From Chitinophagales bacterium (GTDB lineage: Bacteria > Bacteroidota > Bacteroidia > Chitinophagales > Saprospiraceae): a stretch of DNA of 64,000 nt. Numbering within the stretch: position 1 is the stretch's first letter; each line of letters begins with the position of its first letter. The translations under genes and the position numbers were made by a program. Below the pieces are notes generated by a model that had not been told where the DNA came from, did no database searches, and worked only from the letters and a program-made list of their open reading frames with translations. Below are positions 3,486 through 17,770 of this stretch, piece after piece. The stretch spans positions 1-64,000 of the forward strand of contig JAAFIM010000004.1 in NCBI GenBank assembly GCA_013297745.1. Direction: 5' to 3'.

Positions 3486-4919
3486 TTATTTTTCCCAACG
3501 GTTAATAACCGCCAAAACAGCCATATTAAAAAAGAAAAAAGAACCCACTTTATCCGTTTCTATCATATCGTTCATCAATAAAAAGGCTAAAATCACCACA
3601 GTAGAAAGGGTGCAAGCCATCGCTATATCTTTGAGCCGAGCGGTAGAAAGGCTATGATAAACTTTTTCCCCCCATATCAACGTGAAGAAGTTTAATAATA
3701 CAAAAATAAACATACCCAAAAACCCCTGTTCGGACAGCAGCATTAAATAATAATTATGCACACCCGATTGTTCGGGATTATCAGAAACATAAGTTTGAAA
3801 CCGATTGAGGGTATAAAATTTATAATTGTGATAAAAACTACCGCCGCCAAAACCTGTATAAATATCTTGGTCAGCCATTCGGACGCTCGCTATCCATCTA
3901 TAATAACGCTCCATAGTGGAAACATCTTCCAACTTGTAAGTAGCGGCTACTATATCGTTCAAATCCGTATGCGCAATGGTTCTTTCGGTGGGGGCATAAT
4001 CCATAAATTTATTGCTTTGGTATAAATACCCAAAAACAGCGATTAGCAACACGGTAGCCAACATTAACACCCATTTGACCATCCGTATTTTTATCACAAA
4101 ATAAGCCCCAATTGCCAAAAATAAAGCGACATAAGCAGCCCTTGTATAAGCAAAAATTAAAGCGATAAAAAGGATGAAAATGGCAGCCCTGACCAAAAAC
4201 CAACGGGCAGAAAAGCGGGCGTACCAATTCCTAATAAAAAAAATAAGCGGTATGGTCAAAGCTATAATAGCGGCATAATTGACGTGGTTGCGAAAAAAGG
4301 GAGCGGTAGCCGCGTTAATTTCTTTGAAACCAAAACCTAATAAAGCGTGATGCGCGACCACTTTAAGCACCGCGAATATAAAAGGGATAAAAAACCAATG
4401 CAGTACTTGCTCAAAATGGCGGCTGTGGCGTAAAATATATGCGGTAACAAAGTAAAAAGTAGCAATATACCATATTTTGGCCAATAAAAACTTGGTAGAA
4501 ATCGTCAAATCAACGGCAAAAATGGTGCTAAATATATGCCAAGCGAGATGGGTTAATAATAAGACGGTGATTATATTGCCAAAAAAATGGGCTGGGATAG
4601 TATCAGGGCGGCTAATAATGATTAAAAAATAAATGCCCATAAGCCCTATAATAAGCGGTTCTACGGGCAAATCAGTACCTAATCCGTTGGGTAAGGTAAT
4701 TTCGGTGGAAATAGGTACAGCTGCCCAAAGAAAAAGGTATATTTTTTGAAAATCTACTATTGTTATAAAAATACCTAAGGGTATAATCGGCAAAAAAGCC
4801 AAAAACCATTGTTCCCACCACAGCGCAGCCGACAAAGAGGCTAATATAAAAAGGGCAAAAAGGTAGAATAGTTTGAGGGTTAAATTGGCATCGGGGGCTA
4901 AAAATGGCAGTGCGCGCAT
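3486..4919 (-). CDS. O-antigen ligase/polymerase-like membrane protein
   Basis: About 477 residues with ten or more hydrophobic helices. Near residue 400 is the Wzy/WaaL-family type segment GVHNYYLMLLSEQGFLG (a His in a loop, then an aromatic-rich helix), preceded by a large extracytoplasmic loop. Such proteins polymerise or ligate lipid-linked saccharides at the outer face of the inner membrane. ATG at 4919 is preferred: it is 5 nt after the stop of the upstream Wzz-like gene, whereas the longer reading begins with TTG at 4952 and overlaps that gene by 28 nt. It is co-transcribed with the chain-length protein. Polymerase and ligase cannot be separated by sequence alone. Confidence 0.8.
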   Translation of the reverse strand: MRALPFLAPDANLTLKLFYLFALFILASLSAALWWEQWFLAFLPIIPLGIFITIVDFQKIYLFLWAAVPISTEITLPNGLGTDLPVEPLIIGLMGIYFLIIISRPDTIPAHFFGNIITVLLLTHLAWHIFSTIFAVDLTISTKFLLAKIWYIATFYFVTAYILRHSRHFEQVLHWFFIPFIFAVLKVVAHHALLGFGFKEINAATAPFFRNHVNYAAIIALTIPLIFFIRNWYARFSARWFLVRAAIFILFIALIFAYTRAAYVALFLAIGAYFVIKIRMVKWVLMLATVLLIAVFGYLYQSNKFMDYAPTERTIAHTDLNDIVAATYKLEDVSTMERYYRWIASVRMADQDIYTGFGGGSFYHNYKFYTLNRFQTYVSDNPEQSGVHNYYLMLLSEQGFLGMFIFVLLNFFTLIWGEKVYHSLSTARLKDIAMACTLSTVVILAFLLMNDMIETDKVGSFFFFNMAVLAVINRWEK

Positions 4920-4924
4920 ATTAG

Positions 4925-6067
4925 TTAAGAAGGATTTACGTACTTTTGCCAATCGACGCGGCGATAAGTTTCTAATAAAATCAGCCCAGCCGCTCCCAAC
5001 ACAAAAGCTAAAAAAGCAGCACCAACTACGAGTAGCGAGCGGGTAGGATACGATTTTATTTTAGGGATTTGCACCCCTTCTACGACGATTAAAGATGAGG
5101 TTGGGCTATTGGCGGTAGAACGGAATTGTGCAAATTTGTTGGCTATTTCGGCCAATTCTTCGCTTATACTTTCCACTTGCGCTTCATAAAACAAGATAAT
5201 ATCCCGCCCTTTATTGAATTTGTTGAGGTTTATAGCCGTTTGCAAATCTGTATTTTCCGCCTGCAAAAGTGCCAATTTTTTGGAATAGCCGCTAATCCGC
5301 GCTTCCAAGTTGATGATAGAATCGCGTTCGCCCCCTTTTTGGGTATAAATTTGCAATTTGGCTTGCGACTCGGCTAAGGAAGATTCGGTTTGAACGATAA
5401 GCGAAGCCAACAACAAACTCTGTTGTTCTACATTATAAATCCCATATTGTTGGCGCAAAATCATTAAAGTATCCATAATTTGGCGCAATTCTTGTTTTTT
5501 ATCATTTAGGGTATTTTCATAAGTATTGATAATCATTTTTTTGTTGTCTGCGGTAGCATTTTTATACAACATATCCAATTTTTGTATCAAAGTATCCAAC
5601 ATTTGAGCCGCAAACAGAGGTTCTACATCTTCTATAGAAATTTCTACCCCGCTATATTCATTTTTTTTGACGTGATATAATTTTCGGAAACGCTTATTTA
5701 CTTTATCTTCACCTTTGGGGCTGCTGTTATCGATTTCGTACCGTTCGGCAAGGTTAAATTTTTTAATCATAAAATCTATCAAAATAGGAGATTGAGCAAA
5801 TATCAAAGCTCTATCGACCTCATCTTCGTCCCCATAAAGGCTATTATTTTCTCCATTTTCTGTATCAAAAAGTTGTTTATCTTCATTGGCAGGGATAAAA
5901 GTGGCAGAAGCGGTATAATAATTGGGGATAAAAAGGCTTAGTACGGCTGTGAGCAAAGTAGCAGCCACTACGAGAATAGATAAGGCTTTTCGCCAACGGA
6001 CTAAAGTGCCGATGATATGCAGCAGCGAAAAATCCAATTCGGGGCTGTTGGGCGGGTTGTTATTCAT
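4925..6067 (-). CDS. Wzz-like polysaccharide chain-length/export protein
   Basis: 380 residues. An N-terminal transmembrane helix (about 31-51) follows a short cytoplasmic tail, then a long periplasmic, largely helical and coiled-coil region (about 155-330). A Pro-rich segment (KIKSYPTRSLLVVGAAFLAF) leads into the second transmembrane helix. This is the polysaccharide co-polymerase (Wzz) architecture. There is no C-terminal Walker kinase, so it is not a BY-kinase fusion. Such proteins set glycan length together with a Wzy polymerase, which is encoded immediately downstream. Confidence 0.82.
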   Translation of the reverse strand: MNNNPPNSPELDFSLLHIIGTLVRWRKALSILVVAATLLTAVLSLFIPNYYTASATFIPANEDKQLFDTENGENNSLYGDEDEVDRALIFAQSPILIDFMIKKFNLAERYEIDNSSPKGEDKVNKRFRKLYHVKKNEYSGVEISIEDVEPLFAAQMLDTLIQKLDMLYKNATADNKKMIINTYENTLNDKKQELRQIMDTLMILRQQYGIYNVEQQSLLLASLIVQTESSLAESQAKLQIYTQKGGERDSIINLEARISGYSKKLALLQAENTDLQTAINLNKFNKGRDIILFYEAQVESISEELAEIANKFAQFRSTANSPTSSLIVVEGVQIPKIKSYPTRSLLVVGAAFLAFVLGAAGLILLETYRRVDWQKYVNPS

Positions 6068-6118: not shown

Positions 6119-6168
6119 GGTTTTATTTTATAAATATAAGGATATTCGGTTGATTTTTGAATAAAAAA

Positions 6169-6198
6169 AAAGAACTTTAGTAGGTACTAAAGTTCTTT
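6169..6198. terminator. Terminator after the first M61 gene
   Basis: A perfect 14-bp inverted repeat (AAAGAACTTTAGTA / TACTAAAGTTCTTT) around two bases, preceded on the plus strand by nine A residues that become a T-tract for the leftward gene ending at 6239. Confidence 0.85.
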
Positions 6199-6238
6199 TA
6201 TGAAGCTGACATTGATGGGTAAAACGGACACGGTTAGA

Positions 6239-8137
6239 TTAGTTGCCTCCGTCAAGCCAAATTTTGCGCAGGTTAAGTTGTGATTCGGTGGGTTTGTCTA
6301 TAAATTGAAACACGTGTTTTTTATCTACGGGCACTTTGGTAAGGGTGGCATTTAGCGTTTTGGGTTCTAATTCGCCTTTGGCATTTTTGCGCAAAACTTT
6401 AATTTCCAATTTATCCCCTTCTTTGGCATTATCCAAAAAAGTCAGCAATAAGCCCGAAACTGCTTTGACGGTGAAAGCTTTACCGTTCCAATCGGTGATA
6501 ATATCATCTTGTTTGAATCCTATACCATTTTTTCCAAAATCATCCATTTTTTCGGCTTTGGCTATATAAAAACGGCTTAAGCTATCATTTTTGAGCACGC
6601 CATTTTCTATCCCGCCAAGGGGTGAAATTTCCTCAATTTTGGCTTGTTCTGCATAAGTGATACCAAAGGGGCGCATAAATTCGTCATAGGGCAAGCGTTC
6701 TGAACCTTTAATATATTTTTGTATAAAATTTTTGATAGGGCTAACATCAGCAAAAAAGCCACTTTCTGAGATTAATTGGTAAATTTTATCAAAAAGTTCA
6801 TCATCTTTGAACGGATTGTCTTTGCCATAAAAGCCTGAAAGGTCTTTCATCATATCTTGAAGCCCATATTTGCCGTTGGAGAGCGATAATAATTGTACCT
6901 CCAAACAAGCTGCGGTCATAGCCCCTTTGTAATAGATATTGTTGTAGGCTTTGCTATAAGGTTCTACCAAGCAGTTGGCGCTCATTTCTGTGAGAGAAAA
7001 ACCATCTTTGAATTTGTAAGAGGTGCGAACTTTGTCCCCCAATATCTCTAAAAATTTATCATTAGAAATTAGGTCGAATTTAGCCTGCACGTGCTGCGAC
7101 ATATATTCTACGACCCCCTCATAAAGCCAAAGATGTTGGGACATTTTGGGGTTCATAAAATTGAAATTCTGGATTTCTTCGGAATGTATAAATAAAGGGG
7201 TTACGATATGAAAAAACTCGTGAGCTGCTATATCTGACACTTGTTTGGCTATTTTTTCGGCGGCTTCTTCTACCAAACAAAACATAGACGAGCGCGAATG
7301 TTCGAGTGCGCCAATTTGTCCTGTACCATAACCTTCAGATGAAAGATAAAGTATAAATAAATATCGGTCGACGGGTAATATACTGCCTAGATATTGATTT
7401 TGGGCTTCTACTACAGGGCGGATTTTCTTGCCTAATTCTTTGGCGGTTACTTTTTTGTTGGGAGAGAATACAACCACTTCTATTTCAGAATAACCCATTT
7501 TAAACTTCATAGTGTCGGCAACACAATACATAATAGGTTGGTCTATAAGTTCTCCATAGGATTCTGCTTGAAACACGTCGGTATCAAAATCTCCAATATC
7601 AAGACGCTCCAGCGAAGTTGCGCCATAGAAAGTGGAAGGGCGGTCAAATTTTAAGACAAAGGGCAAATTTTCTTTATTTTTGAAAAAACCAAAGCAACCG
7701 CTGTGATTGAGTACAAAAGCTTTACCCACTTCAAAGCTAGTGCCTGCTGGTTCGAATACTGGATTTTTGAGTTTGGCATCCCAAGTATCTTCTATTCTGT
7801 AGGTGATTTTATGCAGTTTTCGTTCTGCTTTGATTTTCCAAGTGTTTTGGTCTGTGCGCTCTACTTTGAGCTCTTTGCCTTTTTTGTCAAAGGCTTTCAA
7901 ATCTTGTACAAATCGCCCAAAATCTAAAATTTCATAAGTACCAGGTACGGTAGCGGGAAAATGATAAATTAGGTCTAACCCGGTAACGCTTAGGGGCGCT
8001 ATCATTTCTACCTCCAGCATATCGTTATCAACTTTACCCAAATTGATATAATATTGATAGGCTTCTGTTTCTTCTTGAGCAAACAGGGCGCCACTATACA
8101 AAGCAACGCAAATAAAACTATATAACCATTGACGCAT
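6239..8137 (-). CDS. Secreted M61 family metallopeptidase with PDZ domain
   Basis: 632 residues. A signal peptide (cleaved near ALFAQ) precedes an N-terminal beta domain. The gluzincin zinc motif is HEFFH at residues 306-310, with the third ligand in WLYEGVVEY (Glu340), as in M61 glycyl-aminopeptidase-type enzymes. A PDZ-like domain follows (about 510-610; PLGGIENGVL and GIGFKQDDIITDWNG). All catalytic residues are present. It is predicted to act in the periplasm or at the surface; the substrate is unknown. It is a close paralogue of the protein at 9924-11816, with the gene for a secreted WD40 protein between them. A terminator follows at 6169-6198. Confidence 0.9.
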   Translation of the reverse strand: MRQWLYSFICVALYSGALFAQEETEAYQYYINLGKVDNDMLEVEMIAPLSVTGLDLIYHFPATVPGTYEILDFGRFVQDLKAFDKKGKELKVERTDQNTWKIKAERKLHKITYRIEDTWDAKLKNPVFEPAGTSFEVGKAFVLNHSGCFGFFKNKENLPFVLKFDRPSTFYGATSLERLDIGDFDTDVFQAESYGELIDQPIMYCVADTMKFKMGYSEIEVVVFSPNKKVTAKELGKKIRPVVEAQNQYLGSILPVDRYLFILYLSSEGYGTGQIGALEHSRSSMFCLVEEAAEKIAKQVSDIAAHEFFHIVTPLFIHSEEIQNFNFMNPKMSQHLWLYEGVVEYMSQHVQAKFDLISNDKFLEILGDKVRTSYKFKDGFSLTEMSANCLVEPYSKAYNNIYYKGAMTAACLEVQLLSLSNGKYGLQDMMKDLSGFYGKDNPFKDDELFDKIYQLISESGFFADVSPIKNFIQKYIKGSERLPYDEFMRPFGITYAEQAKIEEISPLGGIENGVLKNDSLSRFYIAKAEKMDDFGKNGIGFKQDDIITDWNGKAFTVKAVSGLLLTFLDNAKEGDKLEIKVLRKNAKGELEPKTLNATLTKVPVDKKHVFQFIDKPTESQLNLRKIWLDGGN

Positions 8138-8202
8138 GGGAGTAAAAAAATTGGAGTGTTTATAAAAAATTTTAAATTTTATTCATAGATTGCGAAACCT
8201 AA

Positions 8203-8210
8203 CAAAAATA
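8203..8210 (-). promoter_or_regulatory. Possible -7 element of the first M61 gene
   Basis: TATTTTTG on the minus strand, 66 nt before the ATG at 8137. A second identical match lies at 8256-8263. Neither has a clear -33 element, so this is tentative. Confidence 0.35.
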
Positions 8211-8337
8211 ATACCAACTGGGGATTAATTTGTTCAGTATTTTTCTTGTGCGGGGCAAAAATAAGCCTTTTTTTTGAAAATATGCGGATTTTGGATAAAA
8301 AAGATAAAGATTTTGCTAATTCAGCCTTCGATGACTA

Positions 8338-9894
8338 TCAATCAATAGTAGGTTTTCCCTCTCCGCAAGTGTTGAAAGGGTTGCGTTTTTCCTGTTTTAG
8401 CACGCGGGAAAAAATATCGTACTTCTTTGATACCTCCTCTATGTTAGCACCTATATATTTTCCCCAAACCTTATCGCTCAAATTTTTACCCACTAAATCG
8501 CAAATTTGGGTGGCATAGATTGCCATATTCGTTTCAAAAATTTGCACTTCTCCGTTTTGATTACCCGCAAACAAACGCTTGTTGTCGTGGCTAAACGCCA
8601 ATGAACTACTTACACTCAGTAAATTCTTAAACCGAATGGGAGCGTAGCGGTAATCTTTATACGGGTTGGATTCGAAGCTATCACCATATCCGCGAAATAC
8701 TTTGGCTCTTACACTGGTGTCAATTTGCCAAAGGCTTATCAAGCTATCCCCACTAGCAGCAGCCAACTGTTGGCTATTATTGCTAAAAACTAAATCGTTT
8801 ATTTTCTGCTGTTGGAATAATAACAGTTCGGGTTTGTTTTCAAAGATATTATAGTCTAGCAAGTTCCAAATGCGTATAGCGCCGTTAGAGTAGCCAATAG
8901 CAAGGTACACATCGTTTGGACTATGTGCCAATGCGGTTATTTTTATACTATCACCATCAATCGCTGAAGTGGAAAAAGCATCGTTTAAACTTTCTACTTC
9001 TGTTGCATTATCTTCTAGGTTTATCAAATGTAGCTGGTTGGTGTGGGCGGACACACAGAGCAGATATTTCCCGTCGGAGGTTATACCCATATCCAATAAG
9101 CCATTTTTAAACCTTAATTCTGCTAAAAAGCTACTTGTATAGTCATAGATAGAAGTAGAGAATAATTTGCCATCGGTTCCTATACTAATTATGAATTTTT
9201 CCCTAACAACCATATTTGTAATAGTCGTTCCATTATGGGTTTTGATTATAGTATCTAAGCTCAGTTGGTTGGCGCGTAGGCTAAAAATTTCAATCTCACC
9301 ATTTACAGTTGCGCGGGCAAGCGTGTTATCTTTGATAATGAGCATATTAGAAATGGATTCTTTTGAGCTTTGGTAAGCTATTTGGGGAGTTTGTGGGGGG
9401 TATTTATTCTCCCAGCAGAGTATATTCCGCCCGTTGCAACTGTAAAGATACTTATTGTTTGGTGTGCTTAATAGCGCATTTGTGGGTGATTTGGCTAATG
9501 CTCTCAGATTTTTCAACACTTCCAAAGGGTTCATATTTTGTGCTTCTGTAGGATTTGTTATCAGATTGAAGTTGGGTTTTAGTCCAGCTACAGCCGCATA
9601 GAGAGCTTCACCAATATAACTATCGTAAAAATTTCCCTCCGCAGCTTGGTTCAAATCGTATGCTTCTTTTGCCAATAACGCGCGTACTTCTGCGTTTTCT
9701 ACCCCGTGGGATTTGTGCGCTATAGTTTGAGAGAAAGATATCAGCCCAATAATAGCATTTTCTTTCTCCGATTCAATTCGCTGCAAACTGTCGTATCTTG
9801 CTTTCTGTAGACGATTGTGTGGTCTGTATTGAGCAAAAATAGAGTTATAGCAAGCAAAAAATAGGATAGAATTGACTACAAATTTTAGAAACAT
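8338..9894 (-). CDS. Secreted WD40-repeat protein, paralogue of the STAND propeller
   Basis: 518 residues: a signal peptide (about 1-21, ending IFAQ), a helical stretch, then WD40 blades (for example DVYLAIGYSNGAIRIWNL, QQLAAASGDSLISLWQI and RLFAGNQNGEVQIFE). It aligns along its length with the C-terminal part of the STAND protein at 12869: LLAKEAYDLN, EALYAA, LKPNFN, the blade series and the tail NLSDKVWGKYIGA...FNTCG. It therefore looks like a freed, exported copy of that propeller module. It starts 29 nt after the second M61 gene and is likely co-transcribed with it. Role inferred: extracytoplasmic binding scaffold. Confidence 0.82.
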   Translation of the reverse strand: MFLKFVVNSILFFACYNSIFAQYRPHNRLQKARYDSLQRIESEKENAIIGLISFSQTIAHKSHGVENAEVRALLAKEAYDLNQAAEGNFYDSYIGEALYAAVAGLKPNFNLITNPTEAQNMNPLEVLKNLRALAKSPTNALLSTPNNKYLYSCNGRNILCWENKYPPQTPQIAYQSSKESISNMLIIKDNTLARATVNGEIEIFSLRANQLSLDTIIKTHNGTTITNMVVREKFIISIGTDGKLFSTSIYDYTSSFLAELRFKNGLLDMGITSDGKYLLCVSAHTNQLHLINLEDNATEVESLNDAFSTSAIDGDSIKITALAHSPNDVYLAIGYSNGAIRIWNLLDYNIFENKPELLLFQQQKINDLVFSNNSQQLAAASGDSLISLWQIDTSVRAKVFRGYGDSFESNPYKDYRYAPIRFKNLLSVSSSLAFSHDNKRLFAGNQNGEVQIFETNMAIYATQICDLVGKNLSDKVWGKYIGANIEEVSKKYDIFSRVLKQEKRNPFNTCGEGKPTID

Positions 9895-9923
9895 AACAAA
9901 CGATAGTTTAAGGGTTAGAAAAA

Positions 9924-11816
9924 TTATTTACCCAGCCAAATTTTCAGCATTTCTTTTTGTTCAGGGCTAGGCTGTTCTACAAACTTGAACTGATTGCGGC
10001 GTTTGGAAGATATTTTTTTGATGGTATTGGAAAGGGTTTGAGGTTCAAAGTCACCTTGGGCATTTTTGCGCAAAATTTTTACATTCACTAAATCATTTTC
10101 TTTGGTGGATTCTTTATAAGAGATTAGGAAGCTATAAACTGTTTTGGTGTTAAAAACTGCCTCATTCCAGTTTAAAATAATATCATCTTGGATAAAGCCT
10201 AATAAGCGTCCGAAATCATCCAATTTTTCGGGTTTGGCTATATAATAACGTCCCAAACTATCAGACTTGAGCACGCCATTATCCAAGCCCCCCAAAGGAG
10301 AAATTTCTTCAACGGTAAGTTCGCTAAAAAATTTTATCCCAAAAGGTTCAAAATAATCGTTAAAGTTTATTTTTTCTATCCCTGCGATATGCTTCTCCAC
10401 AAATTTTTTTAGCGGGTCTATATCTTTGATATTTCCATTTTGCAGCACAATATCATATATTTTATCAAATAATTCTTTGTCTTTAAATGCTTTGTCTTGC
10501 CCATAATAACCTGACAAATCGACGATGAGGTTAGGCAAACTATATTTGCCTTGTGATTGGCGCAATAGCAATAAGTCCATGCAAGTCACAGCCATAAAAC
10601 CGCGGCTAAATACTGCATTGTAGGATTGTCGGTAAGGTTCTATCAAGCAATTTTCGCTCATTTTGGTCAAAGGAAAGGTGTCATTATATTTGCCCAGCGC
10701 AAGTTTGGCTTTGTCATTAAATACAGTGAGTAGTTTGTCGTGGGTGATGAGCCCATATTTGGCTTGTACGTGTTGCGACATATATTCTACCACCCCTTCA
10801 TAAAGCCAAAGGTGTTGGGACATTTTGGGTTTTATAAAATCAAAATTGTGTATTTCTTCTGAATGTATGTACATAGGCACTATAATATGAAAAAACTCGT
10901 GGGCGGCTTGATTAATTACCTGTTTGGCTATTTTTTCGGCGCTATCTTCCAATAGACAAAATACCGCACATTGGGCATGTTCTAATGCACCCACTTGTTC
11001 GGTCAAATAACCTGTAGGGGATAGATGAAGCATAAAAATATACCTGTTGGTGGGCAAAATACCTCCCAAGTATTGGGTTTGCGCTTCTATTAGCGGGCGG
11101 ATTTTTTTGCTGATTTCTTTAGCGGTTACTTTTTGATTGGGCGAATAAACCACGACTTCTATAGTCGAATAACCTGCTGGAAAACTTGCTGTATCTGCTG
11201 GGCAATACATAACGGGAGCATCCACCAACTCGCGATAAGATTCAGCGCTATATACATCTGTATCATAATCGCTATATGTTTTATTTAAGCTGCTGTTTGC
11301 GTATAGGGTAGAGTGGTGGTCGATGCTGATGACAAAAGGGAGATTTTCTTTATCTTTGAAAAAACCAAAGCAAGCGCCATGATTCAATAAGAAAAATTTA
11401 TTGCTTTCAAACCCTGTGCCTGCGGCTTCAAACACAGGATTGGGTTGGCGACTATCCCAAGTATCTTCTATGTCATAACTAATTTTGTACAATCGTTTTT
11501 CCGCTTTTATGCGCCAAGTGTTTTGGTCCAACCTTTCAGCCGCTAGTTCTTTGCCTTTTCTATCAAAAGCTTTTAAATTTTGCACAAATCGCCCAAAGTC
11601 AAAAAGTTGATAGGTGTTGGGGATAGAAGCTGGGAAATGATAAAATACCTCTTCTGCTTGCACGCTTGTAGGGCATATCAACTCTACAGCGAGTATATCA
11701 TTTTTGATAGCGGTCAAATTGACCTGATATTGATAGCTGTTGTTGGCTTCTTGGGCTGTGTGGTTGGATATAAAAAAGAGATAAAAAAAGATAGAAGCAA
11801 GTATTGTTTTTGTCAT
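9924..11816 (-). CDS. Secreted M61 family metallopeptidase with PDZ domain (second paralogue)
   Basis: About 630 residues from ATG 11816, chosen because it gives a normal signal peptide (MTKTILASIFFYLFFISNHTAQ). The longer frame from 11888 runs back through the terminator of the preceding gene. It has the zinc motif HEFFH (in NQAAHEFFHIIVP), WLYEGVVEY for the third ligand, and a C-terminal PDZ-like region (PLGGLDNGVL). It is alignable end to end with the protein at 6239-8137, so the two came from a duplication. The following secreted WD40 gene is 29 nt away. Confidence 0.9.
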   Translation of the reverse strand: MTKTILASIFFYLFFISNHTAQEANNSYQYQVNLTAIKNDILAVELICPTSVQAEEVFYHFPASIPNTYQLFDFGRFVQNLKAFDRKGKELAAERLDQNTWRIKAEKRLYKISYDIEDTWDSRQPNPVFEAAGTGFESNKFFLLNHGACFGFFKDKENLPFVISIDHHSTLYANSSLNKTYSDYDTDVYSAESYRELVDAPVMYCPADTASFPAGYSTIEVVVYSPNQKVTAKEISKKIRPLIEAQTQYLGGILPTNRYIFMLHLSPTGYLTEQVGALEHAQCAVFCLLEDSAEKIAKQVINQAAHEFFHIIVPMYIHSEEIHNFDFIKPKMSQHLWLYEGVVEYMSQHVQAKYGLITHDKLLTVFNDKAKLALGKYNDTFPLTKMSENCLIEPYRQSYNAVFSRGFMAVTCMDLLLLRQSQGKYSLPNLIVDLSGYYGQDKAFKDKELFDKIYDIVLQNGNIKDIDPLKKFVEKHIAGIEKINFNDYFEPFGIKFFSELTVEEISPLGGLDNGVLKSDSLGRYYIAKPEKLDDFGRLLGFIQDDIILNWNEAVFNTKTVYSFLISYKESTKENDLVNVKILRKNAQGDFEPQTLSNTIKKISSKRRNQFKFVEQPSPEQKEMLKIWLGK

Positions 11817-11862
11817 TTTAATATATGTTTGGCAAGTAAAGAGATTAAAATAAATAAAAAAA

Positions 11863-11884
11863 GCCACTTTCGGGCAAAAGTGGC
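11863..11884 (-). terminator. Terminator of the STAS-DUF2452 unit
   Basis: An 8-bp stem GCCACTTT / AAAGTGGC with a 6-nt loop; the minus strand continues into a run of T. It ends the leftward unit 12792-11932. Confidence 0.8.
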
Positions 11885-11885
11885 G

Positions 11886-11893
11886 CAAAGATA
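11886..11893 (-). promoter_or_regulatory. -7 element of the second M61 gene, abutting a terminator
   Basis: TATCTTTG on the minus strand, one base upstream of the terminator stem. A transcript starting here would begin at or inside the first arm of that hairpin, so the new mRNA could escape the terminator that stops upstream transcription. The -33 element is not clear. Confidence 0.4.
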
Positions 11894-11931
11894 GCAGTTT
11901 GTTGGCTATTTAATATATTATTTGATAAAAT

Positions 11932-12369
11932 TTAGGGTTTGCCGTACTCGATAATCTCCCAAGTATGGTCAGCGAGTAGTTTGACTGTGGCTTCAAACGC
12001 TTCAAAGGGCATCCCTTTTCTTCCCCATTCGCTGGGGGCTATCATTGAGAGTACGTTTTGCCCCGTTTCTCGCCGATAAAGGTGATAGATTTGTGATATT
12101 AGCGGTTTAAAGCTCATATCTGCGGTATAAATTCGCTCTGAAATTTCTACCCGACGCTGCAACTGTTGGGCTTGTTCAGCCAATAATTCCATCTGGCGGC
12201 GAATTTGGTTGAGTTGCATAGTGGTTTGCTCGCGCATAGCTTCTACAGCCAAGCCTTTGGTGCGTCCTTTATCTATTGGTTTGATTACTGCGCTGCCTAC
12301 GGTGTGGGCATAAGGCAATAAATGTGGATTTTCGGCTATTTTTGTTTTGTCTATTGGATTATGCTCCAT
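11932..12369 (-). CDS. DUF2452 family protein
   Basis: 145 residues, soluble. It matches the DUF2452 pattern as remembered: an N-terminal NPHLLPYAHTVGSAVIKP block, a heptad-rich helix (MREQTTMQLNQIRRQMELLAEQAQQLQRRV), ISERIY, then a C-terminal block with LSMIAPSEWG and KLLADHTWE. The family is conserved in several phyla and has no assigned function. It follows the STAS gene by 66 nt, and a terminator comes after it, so it is probably the second gene of that transcript. Confidence 0.85.
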   Translation of the reverse strand: MEHNPIDKTKIAENPHLLPYAHTVGSAVIKPIDKGRTKGLAVEAMREQTTMQLNQIRRQMELLAEQAQQLQRRVEISERIYTADMSFKPLISQIYHLYRRETGQNVLSMIAPSEWGRKGMPFEAFEATVKLLADHTWEIIEYGKP

Positions 12370-12435
12370 ATTATTTGGGCTGATTTTGATATAATTTAAT
12401 ACCCCATAACAATTTTAAAATTGCTTAGTTTATAT

Positions 12436-12792
12436 TTAAACTATATTTTCCTCATTTTTTTTGAAAATAGCCAGCGCGGCTTCTGTAGTGTCTTTGATAA
12501 CAAAAAAAGTTTGTAGGCGTGTGAGTACCAAAACCTGTTGTATATTGGGAGAAATGCCCACGAGGATAATCTCACCCGATTTGGCGCGCACTTTGGCAAG
12601 TGCAGCAATAAGCAAATTTAAACCTGTGCTATTGATGTAACTTAATGCGGCTAAATCTATAATCCATAGTTTATTATCTTTTTGCAATTCCAAATCTATA
12701 ACTTTTAAAATAGCTTTATTGTCTTCAGGATTTTCTAAAGCCAGCAACTGTAAATATGCGGTTGTTGTTATCAGTTCAAATTTGTACGACAT
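12436..12792 (-). CDS. STAS-domain protein (anti-sigma factor antagonist type)
   Basis: 118 residues, one STAS domain. The phosphorylatable-serine loop is visible in ALSYINSTGLNLLIAAL, as in SpoIIAA/RsbV, where an anti-sigma or switch kinase phosphorylates the Ser. No kinase or phosphatase gene is adjacent, so the partner is elsewhere. It sits between the STAND NTPase gene (separated by a terminator) and DUF2452. It may report on partner switching in envelope or stress signalling; this is inference from family only. Confidence 0.85.
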   Translation of the reverse strand: MSYKFELITTTAYLQLLALENPEDNKAILKVIDLELQKDNKLWIIDLAALSYINSTGLNLLIAALAKVRAKSGEIILVGISPNIQQVLVLTRLQTFFVIKDTTEAALAIFKKNEENIV

Positions 12793-12817
12793 ATCAAATG
12801 GATAAAAGATATAAAAA

Positions 12818-12841
12818 AAGGGAGAACTTTCGCTCTCCCTT
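12818..12841 (-). terminator. Terminator of the STAND gene
   Basis: An 8-bp stem AAGGGAGA / TCTCCCTT with an 8-nt loop, followed on the minus strand by TTTTTTT. It separates the STAND gene from the STAS gene. Confidence 0.8.
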
Positions 12842-12868
12842 AGTAATTATATGATATTAATAAAAAAG

Positions 12869-15800
12869 TTATTCAGCATCTATGAGTTGGTCTTTATCGC
12901 CACCGCAGGTTGAGAACGGCGCGCGGCGTTTGAGGTCAGGGGTCAAGATGTATAATTTTTGTTTAATTTCATCTGTTTCAGGGTCGTCAGTACCCACATA
13001 TTTACGCCAAGCTTTATCGCTAAGATTTTTATCCACTTTGGGGCAAATTTCTTCTGCATAAACCATCATATCTGTTTCCCACATTTTGATTTGTCCGTTT
13101 TGAGTACCTGTAAATACGCGGCTGTTGTCCCGCGAGAAGGCTACTGACATAACCCAATCATTGTGGTCTTTTAGTTTGATAGGTACGAAATTAGCTTCTT
13201 TGTACGGATACATACTAGCGTTTTCGCGCGGCGATTTTAGTTTGATTTGCCAAAGAGTGGCAGAATTGTCCATACTAGCGGCTACTAGTTGGCGGCTATC
13301 GTTACTAAAGGCCAAGTCTGTAATTTTTTGGCTGTGGTAGTGCATAGGTTCTGGTTTGAGGATTAATGCGTCTGGAGCAGTCAAATCCCAAATACGCACC
13401 ACACCGTCAGAATATCCTAATGCCAAATAACGCCCATCAGGGCTTTGCGCTACACTACTAACTTTAATCTCACTTTCGCCATCGAGAGGCACGGTAGAGA
13501 AAGCTTCGATTAAGGCTTCTTCTGGTTGGGCATTTTCTTCAAGATTAAGTACTATCATTTTTGAACCATTTTGAGGTATACCAAAAAGATATTTGCCGTC
13601 AGGTGAAATAGCCATATCCACGAATCCTCTTTCGTCACCATCTAAATCCAAGCTAGCCAATTGAGATGTACGCCCGTCTTTGATAGTGGTGTAGAATAAA
13701 TTGTCATCTTTGCCTGAAGTAATAACCCCTTTGTCCCCCAACAATACCATAGAAGTGATGGCTGCGCCGCTGTGACTGCGGATTACGCGGGGAGCTTCTT
13801 TGTCCTTGAGCGCGTTGAAAATTTCGATTTCGCCCTTGTCGTTGGCGCGAATGATGTTTTTATAATCATTGGTCACCACCATAGTACGATAAACTTCAGC
13901 TTTGTGAGCCAATACAGCAGGCAAGCGGTCTTTTTGGCGGTGTTCGGAGGCTTTTTCAAATGGACGATTTACCCATTTTAGTAAATAGCCCTCGCTACCT
14001 GTGCTGAATAAGTGTTCGCCATCTTTGCTAGGAACGATAGAACGCACTGTACCAATTCTTTTTACCCCTTCTGGTGCATCTTCAAGGCTGTTGAAGCTAG
14101 GATTTAATTTGTCCAAAGCTGCATAAAGTGCCTCATAGACATAAGCATCATGGGGGCTACCTTCGCTGACCGTATTCAAATCATAAGCTTCTTTTGCCAA
14201 CAAAGCCTCCACTTTTTCATCCTCTACACTCATAGATTTTACGGCAAGAGACTGAGCCAATGACCAAGCTTTTATCCGCAAAGCTTCGCGGGTAGCAGCT
14301 TCAGCTTTTTGTTGAGCATCAAGAGCCTTTCTTTCAGATTCTATCGCTTGTGCTGTTCTTATTTGAGCCAATCTTTGCGCTTCCAATGCTTCTTTCTCTT
14401 TTAGTTTGGCTCTGGCTTCTGATGATAAAGCTTCTTGGCGACTTTTTTCAGCAGCTATAGCTGCATCCAAAGCTGTACGGGTGGCATTATTAGCTTTTGC
14501 GCTCTCTGCAGCAGCTAAGGCTTCGCTAATTTTGGCTTGAGCTTCAGAATATTTTGCAATTTCTTTGGATCGCTCAGCAATTTGTAAGTCGCGCTCTGAT
14601 TTTTTAGATGACATATAAGCCTCTTTAGCAGCTCTTCGGGCTTTTTCGCCAGCTACTACAGCTACCCCCAATAATAGGATACAAATCAACGCAAATAAAG
14701 CAGAAAAAGCAGCGATTAAAGTTGCCCTGCGCATACGGGTGTCTTGGTCGTGGGCTATAGCCGCTAAGTTAGCTTTGTGTTTGGCTTCACTATCTTCCAA
14801 AAATTTGATAGTTTCCACAAACATAGTATTATACCGAATAGACCAAGGTTCTGTGGGCGGCAATCTATTGGGATTTTCTGTATCATATTCCAACGGTTTA
14901 GCCCATTTTAGCCCTACTGTAAGCTCAGGGTCTTGCCACAAACTGCCTTTACCGCTGTAGTAACGCGAGGCTGCTTCTGATAAGCGGTCGTATGTTTCTG
15001 CTGAAGCGTGTTCATCTTCTACCCAGTTGCGTAAGCGTGTCCATTTTTCCAATAAACATTCATGGGATATATTTATGGTGGAGTCTTCATCTATATCCGA
15101 CATAGGGGGCGCGCTGATAAATTCGCAACCTTTTTGACTGAATATATTGATAACAAAACTTACTTCTTTGAGAGAGGATTGGGTAGCGCGCATAATCTCG
15201 CGTACGGTAGAAGCGCGACGCATAGGACGTCCATCTGCGCCTTTTTCCGAAAGTAGCTTAAACATACGTTCAGCCAATTCTAATCTTTCCGTGTTGCCAT
15301 CTAAATCGGAATAGGCTTGTTCTGCGTGTTTCTCTAATGCGCTTTTTATCCCCCCAACTTCGTCATAGTGTCTAATGCCAATTGGTGTTTTAGCTTCGTT
15401 GGCATCAAGAGATACTCCATCGAGCCAATAATTCCAAGTGCGCATAAGTGCGTGCTGCAACACAGCCAAATCATCAAAATCTTCGCCTGTTTCGTCTAAA
15501 ATTTTATTTACTAGCTCAGGCGCCATTGAAATATCCATATCGCATATACTAGCAGCAGCAGCAACAGGCGCAAATATAGCTTTTTTCAACTCTTCCATTT
15601 TCATACGAGGTATCAAAAATTGCCCGTCGTTGATAGCTTCTGGAAGTGTGCGGAAATCAGTAGCGCGACCAAATGAACTGGAGCGCATAGTGAATACCAC
15701 ATAAATAGCTTGTTCTTTTTGGCGGCTGGCTGTGAGCAACAAACTTACCAGTTGGGCTGCTTCTTGCGCTTGTTCTTCGCCTTTTTTGGCATAGGAGAAT

Positions 15801-16264
15801 ATATCGTCGAACTGGTCAACGACAATCATTAAATTTTCCTTTTTAATATTGGCTTGTTTGAACGCTTCTACTATACCCATATTGCCGCGACGAAGCAAAG
15901 CCTCTACTGTAGCGGGATAGTTGGGTTCCATAGTAGCGTCGCTACACAATACACCTTTTTGAGCCAATTGCTTGGTTAGATTTTTAATTGGGGTATCGCC
16001 AATTGTGCAAACTGCTACCCGCCATTGGGAGCCTGCCTGCCCAGCAAATCCGTCCCGCAGACGCGGTACAAGGCTAGCTTTAGCTAGTGATGATTTGCCT
16101 GAACCTGATATAGCTAAAAAGCGATTGGAACGCAACTTGCGCAAAAGTTCGTCTAATTGACGCTCGCGTCCAAAGAAAAAATTGCGTTCATGGGTTTCAA
16201 AAGACCGCAGCCCAGGGTAGGGTTGTATGTCTTCTTTGAGAATGTCTATAGCTTCTTTTATCAT
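12869..16264 (-). CDS. Membrane-spanning STAND NTPase (nSTAND1 type) with WD40 propeller
   Basis: 1131 residues in four parts. Residues 1-410: nSTAND1 NTPase, recognised by PYPGLRSFE, FFFGRERQLDELL, P-loop AISGSGKS (51-58), Walker B VVDQFDD (148-154), NDGQFLIPRM, and the winged-helix block ISHECLLEKWTRLRNW. About 513-538: one transmembrane helix preceded by RMRR. About 540-700: an Ala/Glu/Lys-rich coiled coil. About 730-1100: a WD40 propeller. STAND proteins are ligand-gated switches that oligomerise with ATP. Basic residues flank the helix on both sides, so topology is not certain; the NTPase is taken as cytoplasmic. The P-loop is two residues shorter than the usual family form. It has its own promoter (16359-16388) and terminator. 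Confidence 0.9.
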   Translation of the reverse strand: MIKEAIDILKEDIQPYPGLRSFETHERNFFFGRERQLDELLRKLRSNRFLAISGSGKSSLAKASLVPRLRDGFAGQAGSQWRVAVCTIGDTPIKNLTKQLAQKGVLCSDATMEPNYPATVEALLRRGNMGIVEAFKQANIKKENLMIVVDQFDDIFSYAKKGEEQAQEAAQLVSLLLTASRQKEQAIYVVFTMRSSSFGRATDFRTLPEAINDGQFLIPRMKMEELKKAIFAPVAAAASICDMDISMAPELVNKILDETGEDFDDLAVLQHALMRTWNYWLDGVSLDANEAKTPIGIRHYDEVGGIKSALEKHAEQAYSDLDGNTERLELAERMFKLLSEKGADGRPMRRASTVREIMRATQSSLKEVSFVINIFSQKGCEFISAPPMSDIDEDSTINISHECLLEKWTRLRNWVEDEHASAETYDRLSEAASRYYSGKGSLWQDPELTVGLKWAKPLEYDTENPNRLPPTEPWSIRYNTMFVETIKFLEDSEAKHKANLAAIAHDQDTRMRRATLIAAFSALFALICILLLGVAVVAGEKARRAAKEAYMSSKKSERDLQIAERSKEIAKYSEAQAKISEALAAAESAKANNATRTALDAAIAAEKSRQEALSSEARAKLKEKEALEAQRLAQIRTAQAIESERKALDAQQKAEAATREALRIKAWSLAQSLAVKSMSVEDEKVEALLAKEAYDLNTVSEGSPHDAYVYEALYAALDKLNPSFNSLEDAPEGVKRIGTVRSIVPSKDGEHLFSTGSEGYLLKWVNRPFEKASEHRQKDRLPAVLAHKAEVYRTMVVTNDYKNIIRANDKGEIEIFNALKDKEAPRVIRSHSGAAITSMVLLGDKGVITSGKDDNLFYTTIKDGRTSQLASLDLDGDERGFVDMAISPDGKYLFGIPQNGSKMIVLNLEENAQPEEALIEAFSTVPLDGESEIKVSSVAQSPDGRYLALGYSDGVVRIWDLTAPDALILKPEPMHYHSQKITDLAFSNDSRQLVAASMDNSATLWQIKLKSPRENASMYPYKEANFVPIKLKDHNDWVMSVAFSRDNSRVFTGTQNGQIKMWETDMMVYAEEICPKVDKNLSDKAWRKYVGTDDPETDEIKQKLYILTPDLKRRAPFSTCGGDKDQLIDAE

Positions 16265-16447: not shown

Positions 16448-17770
16448 CTACTGTTTTATCCGTTTGATATTTGCTCCCAAAGCGTTCAATCGTTCATCTA
16501 TACGCTCATAACCTCTATCAATTTGGTTGATTTGGTGTATAACGCTTCTTCCTTTTGCTGATAAAGCCGCTATTAATAGCGAAACTCCAGCGCGAATGTC
16601 AGGTGAGGTCATCTCAATCCCCCGCAAAGGATAATTTCTATCCAAACCAATAACTGTAGCTCTGTGTGGGTCGCATAAAATAATCTGCGCGCCCATATCT
16701 ATCAATTTATCCACAAAAAATAGGCGACTTTCAAACATTTTTTGGTGGATTAATACACTCCCGCGCGCCTGTGTGGCTATTACCAGCAGTATAGACATCA
16801 AATCGGGGGTAAATCCTGGCCACGGCGAATCATAAACGGTCATAATCGAACCATCTATAAAATTTTGGATTTCATAACGTTCTTGCGCGGGTACGATAAT
16901 ATCATCGTTTTGTATCTCCATTTGTATCCCAAAGCGGGCAAAAGTGGGCAATATGTTCCCCAAAGCATCCACCCGCGCGTTTTTAATCGTAATCGCCGAT
17001 TGGGTCATAGCTGCCAAGCCGATAAAGCTGCCTATTTCTATCATATCGGGCAGTAATCTGTGCGCAGTGCCAAATAATTGGCTTACACCCTCAACCACCA
17101 ATTTGTTGGTGCCTATGCCTGTAATCCGCGCGCCCATACTGTTGAGCATTTTGCACAGTTGTTGTACATAAGGCTCGCAAGCAGCGTTGTAAATGGTGGT
17201 CATTCCGTTCGCCATAGTAGCAGCCATTAGGGTGTTGGCGGTAGCCGTTACGGATATTTCGTCCATCAGAATATAAGCCCCTTTCAGCTCTTTGCTATGT
17301 ATGCTGTACATACTTTTTTCGGCATCGTAGTCAAAAATTGCCCCCAATTTTTCCAAGCCCAATAAGTGCGTATCCAATCTTCTTCTGCCAATTTTGTCCC
17401 CGCCAGGTTTGGGCAAAACTGCCTTACCAAATCTTGCCAACAAAACCCCCAACAACATCACCGAACCGCGTATTTTGGCTGCTTTGCTGATATAAGCGTC
17501 TGTGTATAAATAATCTATATCTATATTATCGGATTGAAAAGTGTAGATATTTTCTCCTGTTTTTTCCACTATCACCCCCAAGCCCTGCAACAGTTCTATC
17601 AAAAGTTGCACATCTTTTATATTGGGGACATTGGATAAAGTGACCTTTTCGGAAGTGAGTAGCACCGCACAAACCACCTGTAAGGCTTCGTTTTTTGCGC
17701 CTTGAGGGCTAATTTCGCCTGACAAGCGTGCGCCCCCTTCTACAAGGAAAGATTCATTATTTCCGCTCAT
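16448..17770 (-). CDS. murA: UDP-N-acetylglucosamine 1-carboxyvinyltransferase with Asp at the fosfomycin site
   Basis: 440 residues, full length for MurA, which transfers enolpyruvate from PEP to UDP-GlcNAc in the first committed step of peptidoglycan synthesis in the cytoplasm. Visible signatures are GAKNEAL (Lys26/Asn27 substrate loop) and the active-site loop PGGDKIGRRRLDTH. The position that is Cys115 in E. coli is Asp125 here. The same natural replacement in mycobacterial and chlamydial MurA leaves the enzyme active but insensitive to fosfomycin. It is transcribed leftward from a promoter region shared with the divergent gene at 17879. Confidence 0.95.
   Translation of the reverse strand: MSGNNESFLVEGGARLSGEISPQGAKNEALQVVCAVLLTSEKVTLSNVPNIKDVQLLIELLQGLGVIVEKTGENIYTFQSDNIDIDYLYTDAYISKAAKIRGSVMLLGVLLARFGKAVLPKPGGDKIGRRRLDTHLLGLEKLGAIFDYDAEKSMYSIHSKELKGAYILMDEISVTATANTLMAATMANGMTTIYNAACEPYVQQLCKMLNSMGARITGIGTNKLVVEGVSQLFGTAHRLLPDMIEIGSFIGLAAMTQSAITIKNARVDALGNILPTFARFGIQMEIQNDDIIVPAQERYEIQNFIDGSIMTVYDSPWPGFTPDLMSILLVIATQARGSVLIHQKMFESRLFFVDKLIDMGAQIILCDPHRATVIGLDRNYPLRGIEMTSPDIRAGVSLLIAALSAKGRSVIHQINQIDRGYERIDERLNALGANIKRIKQ

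Follow-up and report, generated by a model that had tools for sequence, protein, structure and literature searches.

A stalked, membrane-spanning STAND protein from a Saprospiraceae genome as the candidate inner half of a trans-envelope receptor

We describe a STAND protein of a Chitinophagales bacterium (Saprospiraceae; assembly GCA_013297745.1) that is encoded in the first 64,000 nucleotides of contig JAAFIM010000004.1, the whole stretch analysed here (the window; C89 in our numbering; the genome has 4.28 Mb and 154 contigs). Sequence comparison gives a slightly better than even chance that this protein forms the inner-membrane half of a receptor spanning the envelope, with an outer-membrane protein as its partner. 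STAND proteins have become known mainly as alarm switches of the cytosol. An earlier note on this DNA, made from the sequence alone, had read the window protein as membrane-spanning, and hydropathy agrees, with one hydrophobic segment at about residues 520-538. The parts of the protein are as follows.

12869..16264, minus strand: STAND protein, 1131 amino acids; nSTAND1 nucleoside triphosphatase (NTPase), one transmembrane (TM) helix, alanine-heptad stalk, WD40 propeller, C-terminal tail with a Cys pair
14954..16222, minus strand: nSTAND1 NTPase domain, residues 15-437 (PF20703, 260.2 bits, cut-off 27.1)
16088..16123, minus strand: shortened Walker A region, residues 48-59, no GxxxxGK[ST] (family alignment)
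14651..14707, minus strand: single TM helix, residues 520-538 (hydropathy only)
14264..14662, minus strand: predicted coiled-coil stalk, residues 535-667, Ala at 18 of 19 heptad positions
13076..14047, minus strand: STAND WD40 propeller, residues ~740-1063 (PF00400; strands in the AlphaFold2 model)

The stalked STAND protein and its conserved neighbour

Relatives of the STAND protein were sought with a two-row profile in genomes of the phylum (296) and of the family (398), and most of the matching neighbourhoods were fetched. Neighbouring genes were labelled by profiles built from the fetched loci, with barrel and receptor labels taken from Pfam on examples; where frames overlap, the open reading frame (ORF) caller retains the longest one, so that some genes are hidden (for instance a TPR-like gene in L237). 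For the partner count we used STAND matches above 900 bits, which gave 29 distinct loci outside the window. The lowest counted match scored 994 bits; the next, at 707, is a second copy at a contig end in G503 (L207), and the rest, at 607 or less, are generic or conflict-type. The matches G020:C310 and G642:C135 and the fragment G626:C357 lie outside the fetched set, and L045, L085 and L077 duplicate L094, L047 and L044.

In all 28 testable loci outside the window (L095 ends at a contig edge), the STAND gene is followed on the same strand by a gene for an outer-membrane protein. It is immediately next in 27; in L044 one gene, for a free propeller, intervenes. The partner combines a TPR-like domain either with an outer-membrane-barrel protein or with a TonB-dependent receptor. 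This single N-terminal domain is common to both barrel types, and a profile of it found no other protein in the gene set around STAND and M61 loci. Intergenic distances range from -65 to 635 bases, being 11 or less in 12 of 27 cases and 295-635 in several g22 genomes, and lipoprotein genes stand 3' of the barrel gene in many loci. The loci come from eleven genera, and many are close relatives.

STAND and TPR-barrel trees agree where they are resolved (G390, G000 and G503 are unplaced at the base of the barrel tree), and in G106, G203 and G242, which each hold two paralogous sets, x and y, each STAND pairs with its own barrel. The distances of the two proteins correlate at 0.977 over 21 pairs; since this was calculated without a control gene, shared ancestry accounts for part of the value. 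In the window itself no TPR-barrel gene adjoins the STAND gene, and the single match in this genome is on another contig, C64 (L139 8377-13787), together with two tandem lipoprotein genes (86% identical) and a TerB-like gene. The barrel, lipoprotein and TerB-like genes remain together there; the ancestral operon appears to have been split in this genome between STAND and barrel.

By sequence comparison, the order of domains is fixed in the family: NTPase, one TM helix, alanine-heptad stalk and WD40 propeller. Right after the TM helix, alanine recurs at every seventh residue, a register that scores 16.5 in the window protein against a maximum of 5 in shuffles. For the stalk and P-loop counts 26 relatives were used (L202-L204 were left out), 23 of which score 10.5-22 against shuffle maxima of 4-7. 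Stalk length is 17-22 heptads in 23 of the 26, or ~18-23 nm at the helical rise of 0.148 nm per residue, a length near the width of the periplasm. Among low-score STANDs, measured in the 16 rows of at least 700 amino acids, a stalk is present in three (L151, L193 and L194). An AlphaFold2 model of the whole STAND protein is of low confidence (predicted local distance difference test, pLDDT, 59.5; predicted template modelling score, pTM, 0.38) and gives a hint of one long helix at residues 482-677.

The nucleotide-binding motifs of the window protein are unusual. Its Walker A region, RFLAISGSGKSS, is three residues short, whereas GxxxxGK[ST] is present in all 26 relatives, and its Walker B motif is DQFD against DQFE in the 26 others. 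Since the nSTAND1 profile is matched but GxxxxGK[ST] is not, the protein is filed as a divergent nSTAND1-type protein, a predicted NTPase. In this single genome a true P-loop deletion and an assembly fault look alike.

Free propellers, split versions and neighbouring outputs

The window holds a second copy of the STAND C-terminus, an exported-type protein encoded at 8338..9894 with neither TM helix nor stalk. The earlier note had called it a paralogue of the STAND propeller, and the relationship is specific: the two proteins align over 509 amino acids (38% identity, E 1e-99), a stretch that takes in the C-terminal tail and the helical segment ahead of the propeller, and searches of their own genome at E <= 0.001 return, for each propeller, only itself and the other (E 1.5e-92 and 4.1e-91). 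Both proteins match PF00400, at 90 and 53.7 bits (cut-off 27). The AlphaFold2 model of the free propeller is fair (pLDDT 73.2, pTM 0.75); a PDB fold search with it gave generic WD40 proteins among the 50 matches listed, and the APAF-1 type structures 3sfz and 3shf were matched over the propeller.

Stalkless, exported-type propellers occur in the window and in L044, L078, L079, L080 and L081. A locus search across genome contigs with the exported propeller alone as query confirmed nothing; with an alignment as query it gave four loci, three in Aureispira and one in Saprospiraceae. The propeller tree needs three changes of state, with the starred branches forcing three, and by this tree free propellers arose at least three times. 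The window free propeller groups with the window STAND at 100/99, on a long branch of unusual composition, and a seven-residue insertion is common to this pair and absent from five other rows. By eye, signal-peptide-like N-termini are present in all six free propellers. Because the detached copies look exported each time, their repeated appearance supports a periplasmic position for the STAND propeller as well.

The reverse search, with the barrel profile, gave matches in 15 of the 296 phylum and 37 of the 398 family genomes (the barrel-only matches G449, G511, G536 and G370:C81 lie outside the fetched set, and L231 is a barrel fragment). It added 19 Saprospiraceae loci with the N-terminal domain, and apart from L216, at a contig edge, 14 of 18 have a propeller directly upstream. 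In loci with a separate NTPase gene (L214, L215, L219, L221, L222, L223, L228 and L230), a gene for TM helix, stalk and propeller still precedes the TPR-barrel gene. Ten such split versions have the TM helix and heptads to a varying degree, with scores of 5-23. In six of them (L214, L215, L219, L221, L228 and L230) the row reads CHAT-like gene, separate STAND NTPase, TM-stalk-propeller gene and TPR-barrel gene, as in a split receptor; the CHAT label comes from Pfam in L214 and from similarity by eye in the other five. In L225 an nSTAND1 domain and a sub-threshold CHAT match (22.0 bits, cut-off 24) occur in one protein.

Other neighbours differ by lineage. The genes of L146 run STAS, STAND, TonB receptor, an unnamed protein, a transporter-like protein with HEAT repeats, SpoIIE with Reg_prop and Y_Y_Y, and HATPase_c_2 (all labelled by profile, with Pfam for SpoIIE, HATPase and receptor). 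In L093 HATPase_c_2 and STAS are found by Pfam and all three partner-switching kinds by profile, and in L232 a propeller and TonB receptor adjoin SpoIIE (Pfam), HATPase and STAS (profile), and no NTPase gene is visible. Upstream of the TM-stalk-propeller and TonB receptor set in L232 lies a Mutator-type transposase gene. A SIR2_2 gene is upstream of STAND in L239, and a TIR/DUF4062-like gene in L091, L096, L144 and L183; in L144 a giant Por_Secre_tail protein follows.

The proposed receptor

The reading that we favour by a little is that the NTPase would lie in the cytoplasm and the propeller, since a single TM helix separates the two, in the periplasm. The stalk of ~20 nm would hold the propeller close to the outer membrane, and the propeller may bind the partner's TPR-like domain there. 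A partner altered by a ligand, by damage or in its state of assembly could then send this change down the stalk and alter the nucleotide state or clustering of the NTPase. The output would vary with lineage, being partner-switching regulators in some and CHAT, TIR/DUF4062-like or SIR2 effectors in others. In the window the free propeller, whose gene now lies between those of two M61 peptidases, might compete for the same partner or bridge to it.

Several observations weigh against this reading. The assignment to TPR is weak: two of ten members each have TPR_8 or TPR_2, with a best E of 0.0042, and a PDB TPR chain is matched at E 0.036. The alanine register is weak or absent in three of the 26 relatives (L096, L145 and L182), although L096 is coiled-coil-like, and among the split versions it is weak in L214, L215 and L219, with L229 marginal at 5 (shuffle maximum 4.5). 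The stalked low-score STANDs L193 and L194 have no such partner next door (L151 is at a contig edge). Four of the 18 additional Saprospiraceae loci lack a linked propeller (L213, L218, L226 and L227; the visible upstream sequence is limited to 609 bases in L218 and 981 in L227). Elsewhere, six of eight loci lie near protein-kinase-like genes instead, with L232 and L239 adjoining a propeller or STAND; for L233-L238 the kinase label comes from Pfam in L233 and from motifs or likeness of the first residues in the rest. Because the domain is also found without STAND, near protein-kinase-like genes, these loci suggest that it is a wider adaptor and not a private STAND partner. Moreover, the window copy, with its partner unlinked and its P-loop shortened, may be impaired. 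The topology itself comes from hydropathy and logic, and we infer the binding of propeller to TPR-like domain, the coupling, the signal and the output.

In layout the proposed pair resembles the FecA-FecR kind of system, where an inner-membrane protein that crosses its membrane once takes signals from an outer-membrane receptor with a periplasmic N-terminal domain; here a TPR-like domain, a WD40 propeller and STAND stand in for the customary signalling domain and the anti-sigma factor. Partner-switching modules are made up of SpoIIE phosphatase, HATPase_c_2 and STAS, and genes of all three kinds stand beside propeller or STAND in L146, L232 and, by profile, L093, whereas the window has a STAS gene only. 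The APAF-1 type receptors likewise have a sensor propeller that controls a STAND NTPase (see also PMC13174449 and PMC7159879), but differ in lacking membrane and stalk and in responding to a cytosolic signal. The nSTAND1-WD40 proteins (PF20703) of conflict systems (Kaur et al. 2020; PMC7159879) share the NTPase class and C-terminal propeller, and the likeness extends to TIR, DUF4062 and EAD1-like neighbours in some lineages here. The proteins here differ from those systems in having a heptad stalk that carries the propeller across the membrane and an outer-membrane protein as pair partner, and in the main text of PMC7159879 the terms 'outer membrane' and 'TonB' are absent. The Swarozyc DUF4062 NADases (PMC13174449) have a counterpart in the DUF4062-like proteins that adjoin some members of the family; the word 'membrane' is absent from the main text of PMC13174449, and the window has no such gene among those scanned. 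Titles and abstract beginnings listed from the open-licence literature describe no STAND/outer-membrane pair, which is no proof of absence.

If the proposal is true, a STAND switch acts across the entire Gram-negative envelope, so that an outer-membrane receptor has a direct route to an NTPase with no anti-sigma or histidine-kinase step in between, and the repeated births of free propellers become a natural experiment on receptor tuning. A wider version of the idea is possible but less likely than not: that these proteins form a general Bacteroidota receptor class, in which an alanine-zipper stalk of set length would hold the WD40 propeller at the outer membrane, TPR-like docking would serve different barrels, outputs would be interchangeable from gene regulation to suicide effectors, and free propellers would be decoys or tuners.

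Alternative explanations and the six-gene block

The CHAT, SIR2_2 and TIR/DUF4062-like neighbours of several lineages could belong to an immunity or cell-death receptor, whose outer-membrane partner senses attack (e.g. by phage) and whose STAND protein triggers a lethal effector; the preprint PMC13174449, which reports DUF4062 proteins to be TIR-like NADases in antiphage defence, speaks for this. We regard it as doubtful, since PADLOC finds no match for the STAND protein, no effector is seen by profile beside STAND in Saprospira/Aureispira-type loci or in the window (not all neighbours were Pfam-scanned), the conserved murA neighbourhood is unlike a mobile defence island, and other lineages have partner-switching genes. 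PADLOC likewise left four of the five other window proteins of the block unmatched, the free propeller giving a weak HEAT-ARM_XIII hit (24.7 bits) over part of the propeller, and a known anti-phage system was set aside for want of its support. The lipoprotein genes behind the barrel gene in many loci and the giant Por_Secre_tail protein of L144 would suit a structural tether between the two membranes, or a scaffold there for the assembly of, for example, surface proteins of the type IX secretion system (T9SS), with no signalling at all; an NTPase of a signalling class, and regulators or effectors adjacent in several lineages, make this distinctly improbable. The window copy by itself might be a decaying relic with damaged P-loop and unlinked partner, its free propeller having a role of its own. 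It is indeed alone among the 27 compared in having no GxxxxGK[ST] and DQFD for DQFE, and its partner gene is on another contig. Its frame of 1131 codons is nevertheless intact, stalk heptads and C-terminal motifs are kept, and A-I-S-G-S-G-K-S matches the looser pattern [AG]x4GK[ST]; we think a relic unlikely.

The earlier note had placed the STAND gene in a different setting, as one of six genes on the minus strand at 6239-16264. The six are there, and the M61 (two), WD40, DUF2452, STAS and nSTAND1-WD40 proteins all score above Pfam cut-offs. With a further neighbour and the terminator-like hairpins, the features beside the STAND gene are these.

16448..17770, minus strand: MurA-like gene, 440 amino acids, old upstream neighbour of STAND (PF00275)
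12818..12841, minus strand: terminator-like hairpin 3' of STAND
12436..12792, minus strand: STAS protein, 118 amino acids, anti-sigma-antagonist-like (PF01740, 44.9 bits, cut-off 22.6)
11932..12369, minus strand: DUF2452 protein, 145 amino acids, probable bystander (PF10504)
11863..11884, minus strand: terminator-like hairpin 3' of DUF2452, before M61 peptidase 1
9924..11816, minus strand: M61 peptidase 1, predicted exported, 630 amino acids from ATG 11816, probable bystander (PF17899, PF05299)
8338..9894, minus strand: free propeller, predicted exported, 518 amino acids, detached copy of the STAND C-terminus without TM helix or stalk
6239..8137, minus strand: M61 peptidase 2, predicted exported, 632 amino acids, probable bystander (Pfam)
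6168..6199, minus strand: terminator-like hairpin 3' of M61 peptidase 2

The note had taken the co-location to be more than chance clustering and had proposed that M61 peptidases process envelope proteins scaffolded or sensed by the two propellers. This was examined in a panel of 15 hand-picked genomes with STAND matches, the window genome and 14 others. M61 relatives occur in nine of the 14, in all nine away from STAND, with none on a STAND contig within ~175 kb (nearest in G371), and the neighbourhoods fetched around STAND contain no M61 gene. DUF2452 is well conserved, with one copy in each of 13 of the 14 (52-70% identical), and is unlinked in all 13, the nearest on any STAND contig being ~198 kb away (G203). 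STAS relatives occur in 12 of the 14 and near STAND in G246 only, at ~3 kb; outside the panel a STAS gene is directly upstream of STAND in L146 and L148. Because these relatives lie elsewhere, with one distant exception for STAS, the M61 and DUF2452 links fail and the STAS link is weakly supported. The six genes as one unit were therefore rejected, and a co-location beyond chance is not confirmed. M61 genes are also absent beside the free propellers of L044 and L078-L081, so that M61 as a partner of free propellers has no support outside the window. Six-gene sensing and proteolysis is thus very improbable, even with all six genes on one strand and a free propeller between M61 genes with no terminator-like site in the intergenic spaces. 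Of the hypothesis in the note, the specific paralogy, the trans-membrane STAND protein and the idea of an envelope sensor survive, and the M61 peptidases as partners do not; its observation is partly confirmed and its interpretation partly supported. Strand and proximity misled here, the conserved partner being on a separate contig.

We suggest that DUF2452 and the M61 genes may be neighbours brought to STAND by rearrangement. The window STAS protein is possibly a genuine output component, which is a guess; it reaches 50 bits against TIGR00377, slightly below the cut-off of 53.45, and no HATPase_c_2 or SpoIIE profile label for a kinase or phosphatase appears among the first 25 window ORFs listed. 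The murA-STAND order recurs in nine fetched g22 (Aureispira-type) genomes and in G390 and is absent from five g215 loci with a visible upstream side; this adjacency is older than the six-gene block.

The note had also inferred separate transcription units, and the hairpins at 12841-12818 and 11884-11863 agree, partitioning the block into STAND, STAS-DUF2452 and M61-propeller-M61. A scan of both strands gave 20 terminator-like sites in the window, against 10.8 in shuffles (standard deviation 3.2). Within the last unit, where the free propeller begins 29 bases after M61 peptidase 1 and ends 200 before M61 peptidase 2, the only matches are three weak minus-strand ones inside coding parts. Since the second hairpin overlaps the longer reading from TTG 11888, ATG 11816 is the more likely start of M61 peptidase 1. 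The two M61 proteins are 56% identical, and both have Peptidase_M61_N and Peptidase_M61 (PF05299, 51.1 and 49.5 bits, cut-off 22); the motifs HEFFH and WLYEG can be read in the sequence, giving HExxH with a downstream Glu, as expected of M61 glycyl aminopeptidases. An adjacent pair of M61 genes, with no propeller in between, occurs in L205 (G390). Just downstream of the block, at 3486-6067, the window has O-antigen ligase-like (Wzy_C) and chain-length (Wzz) genes.

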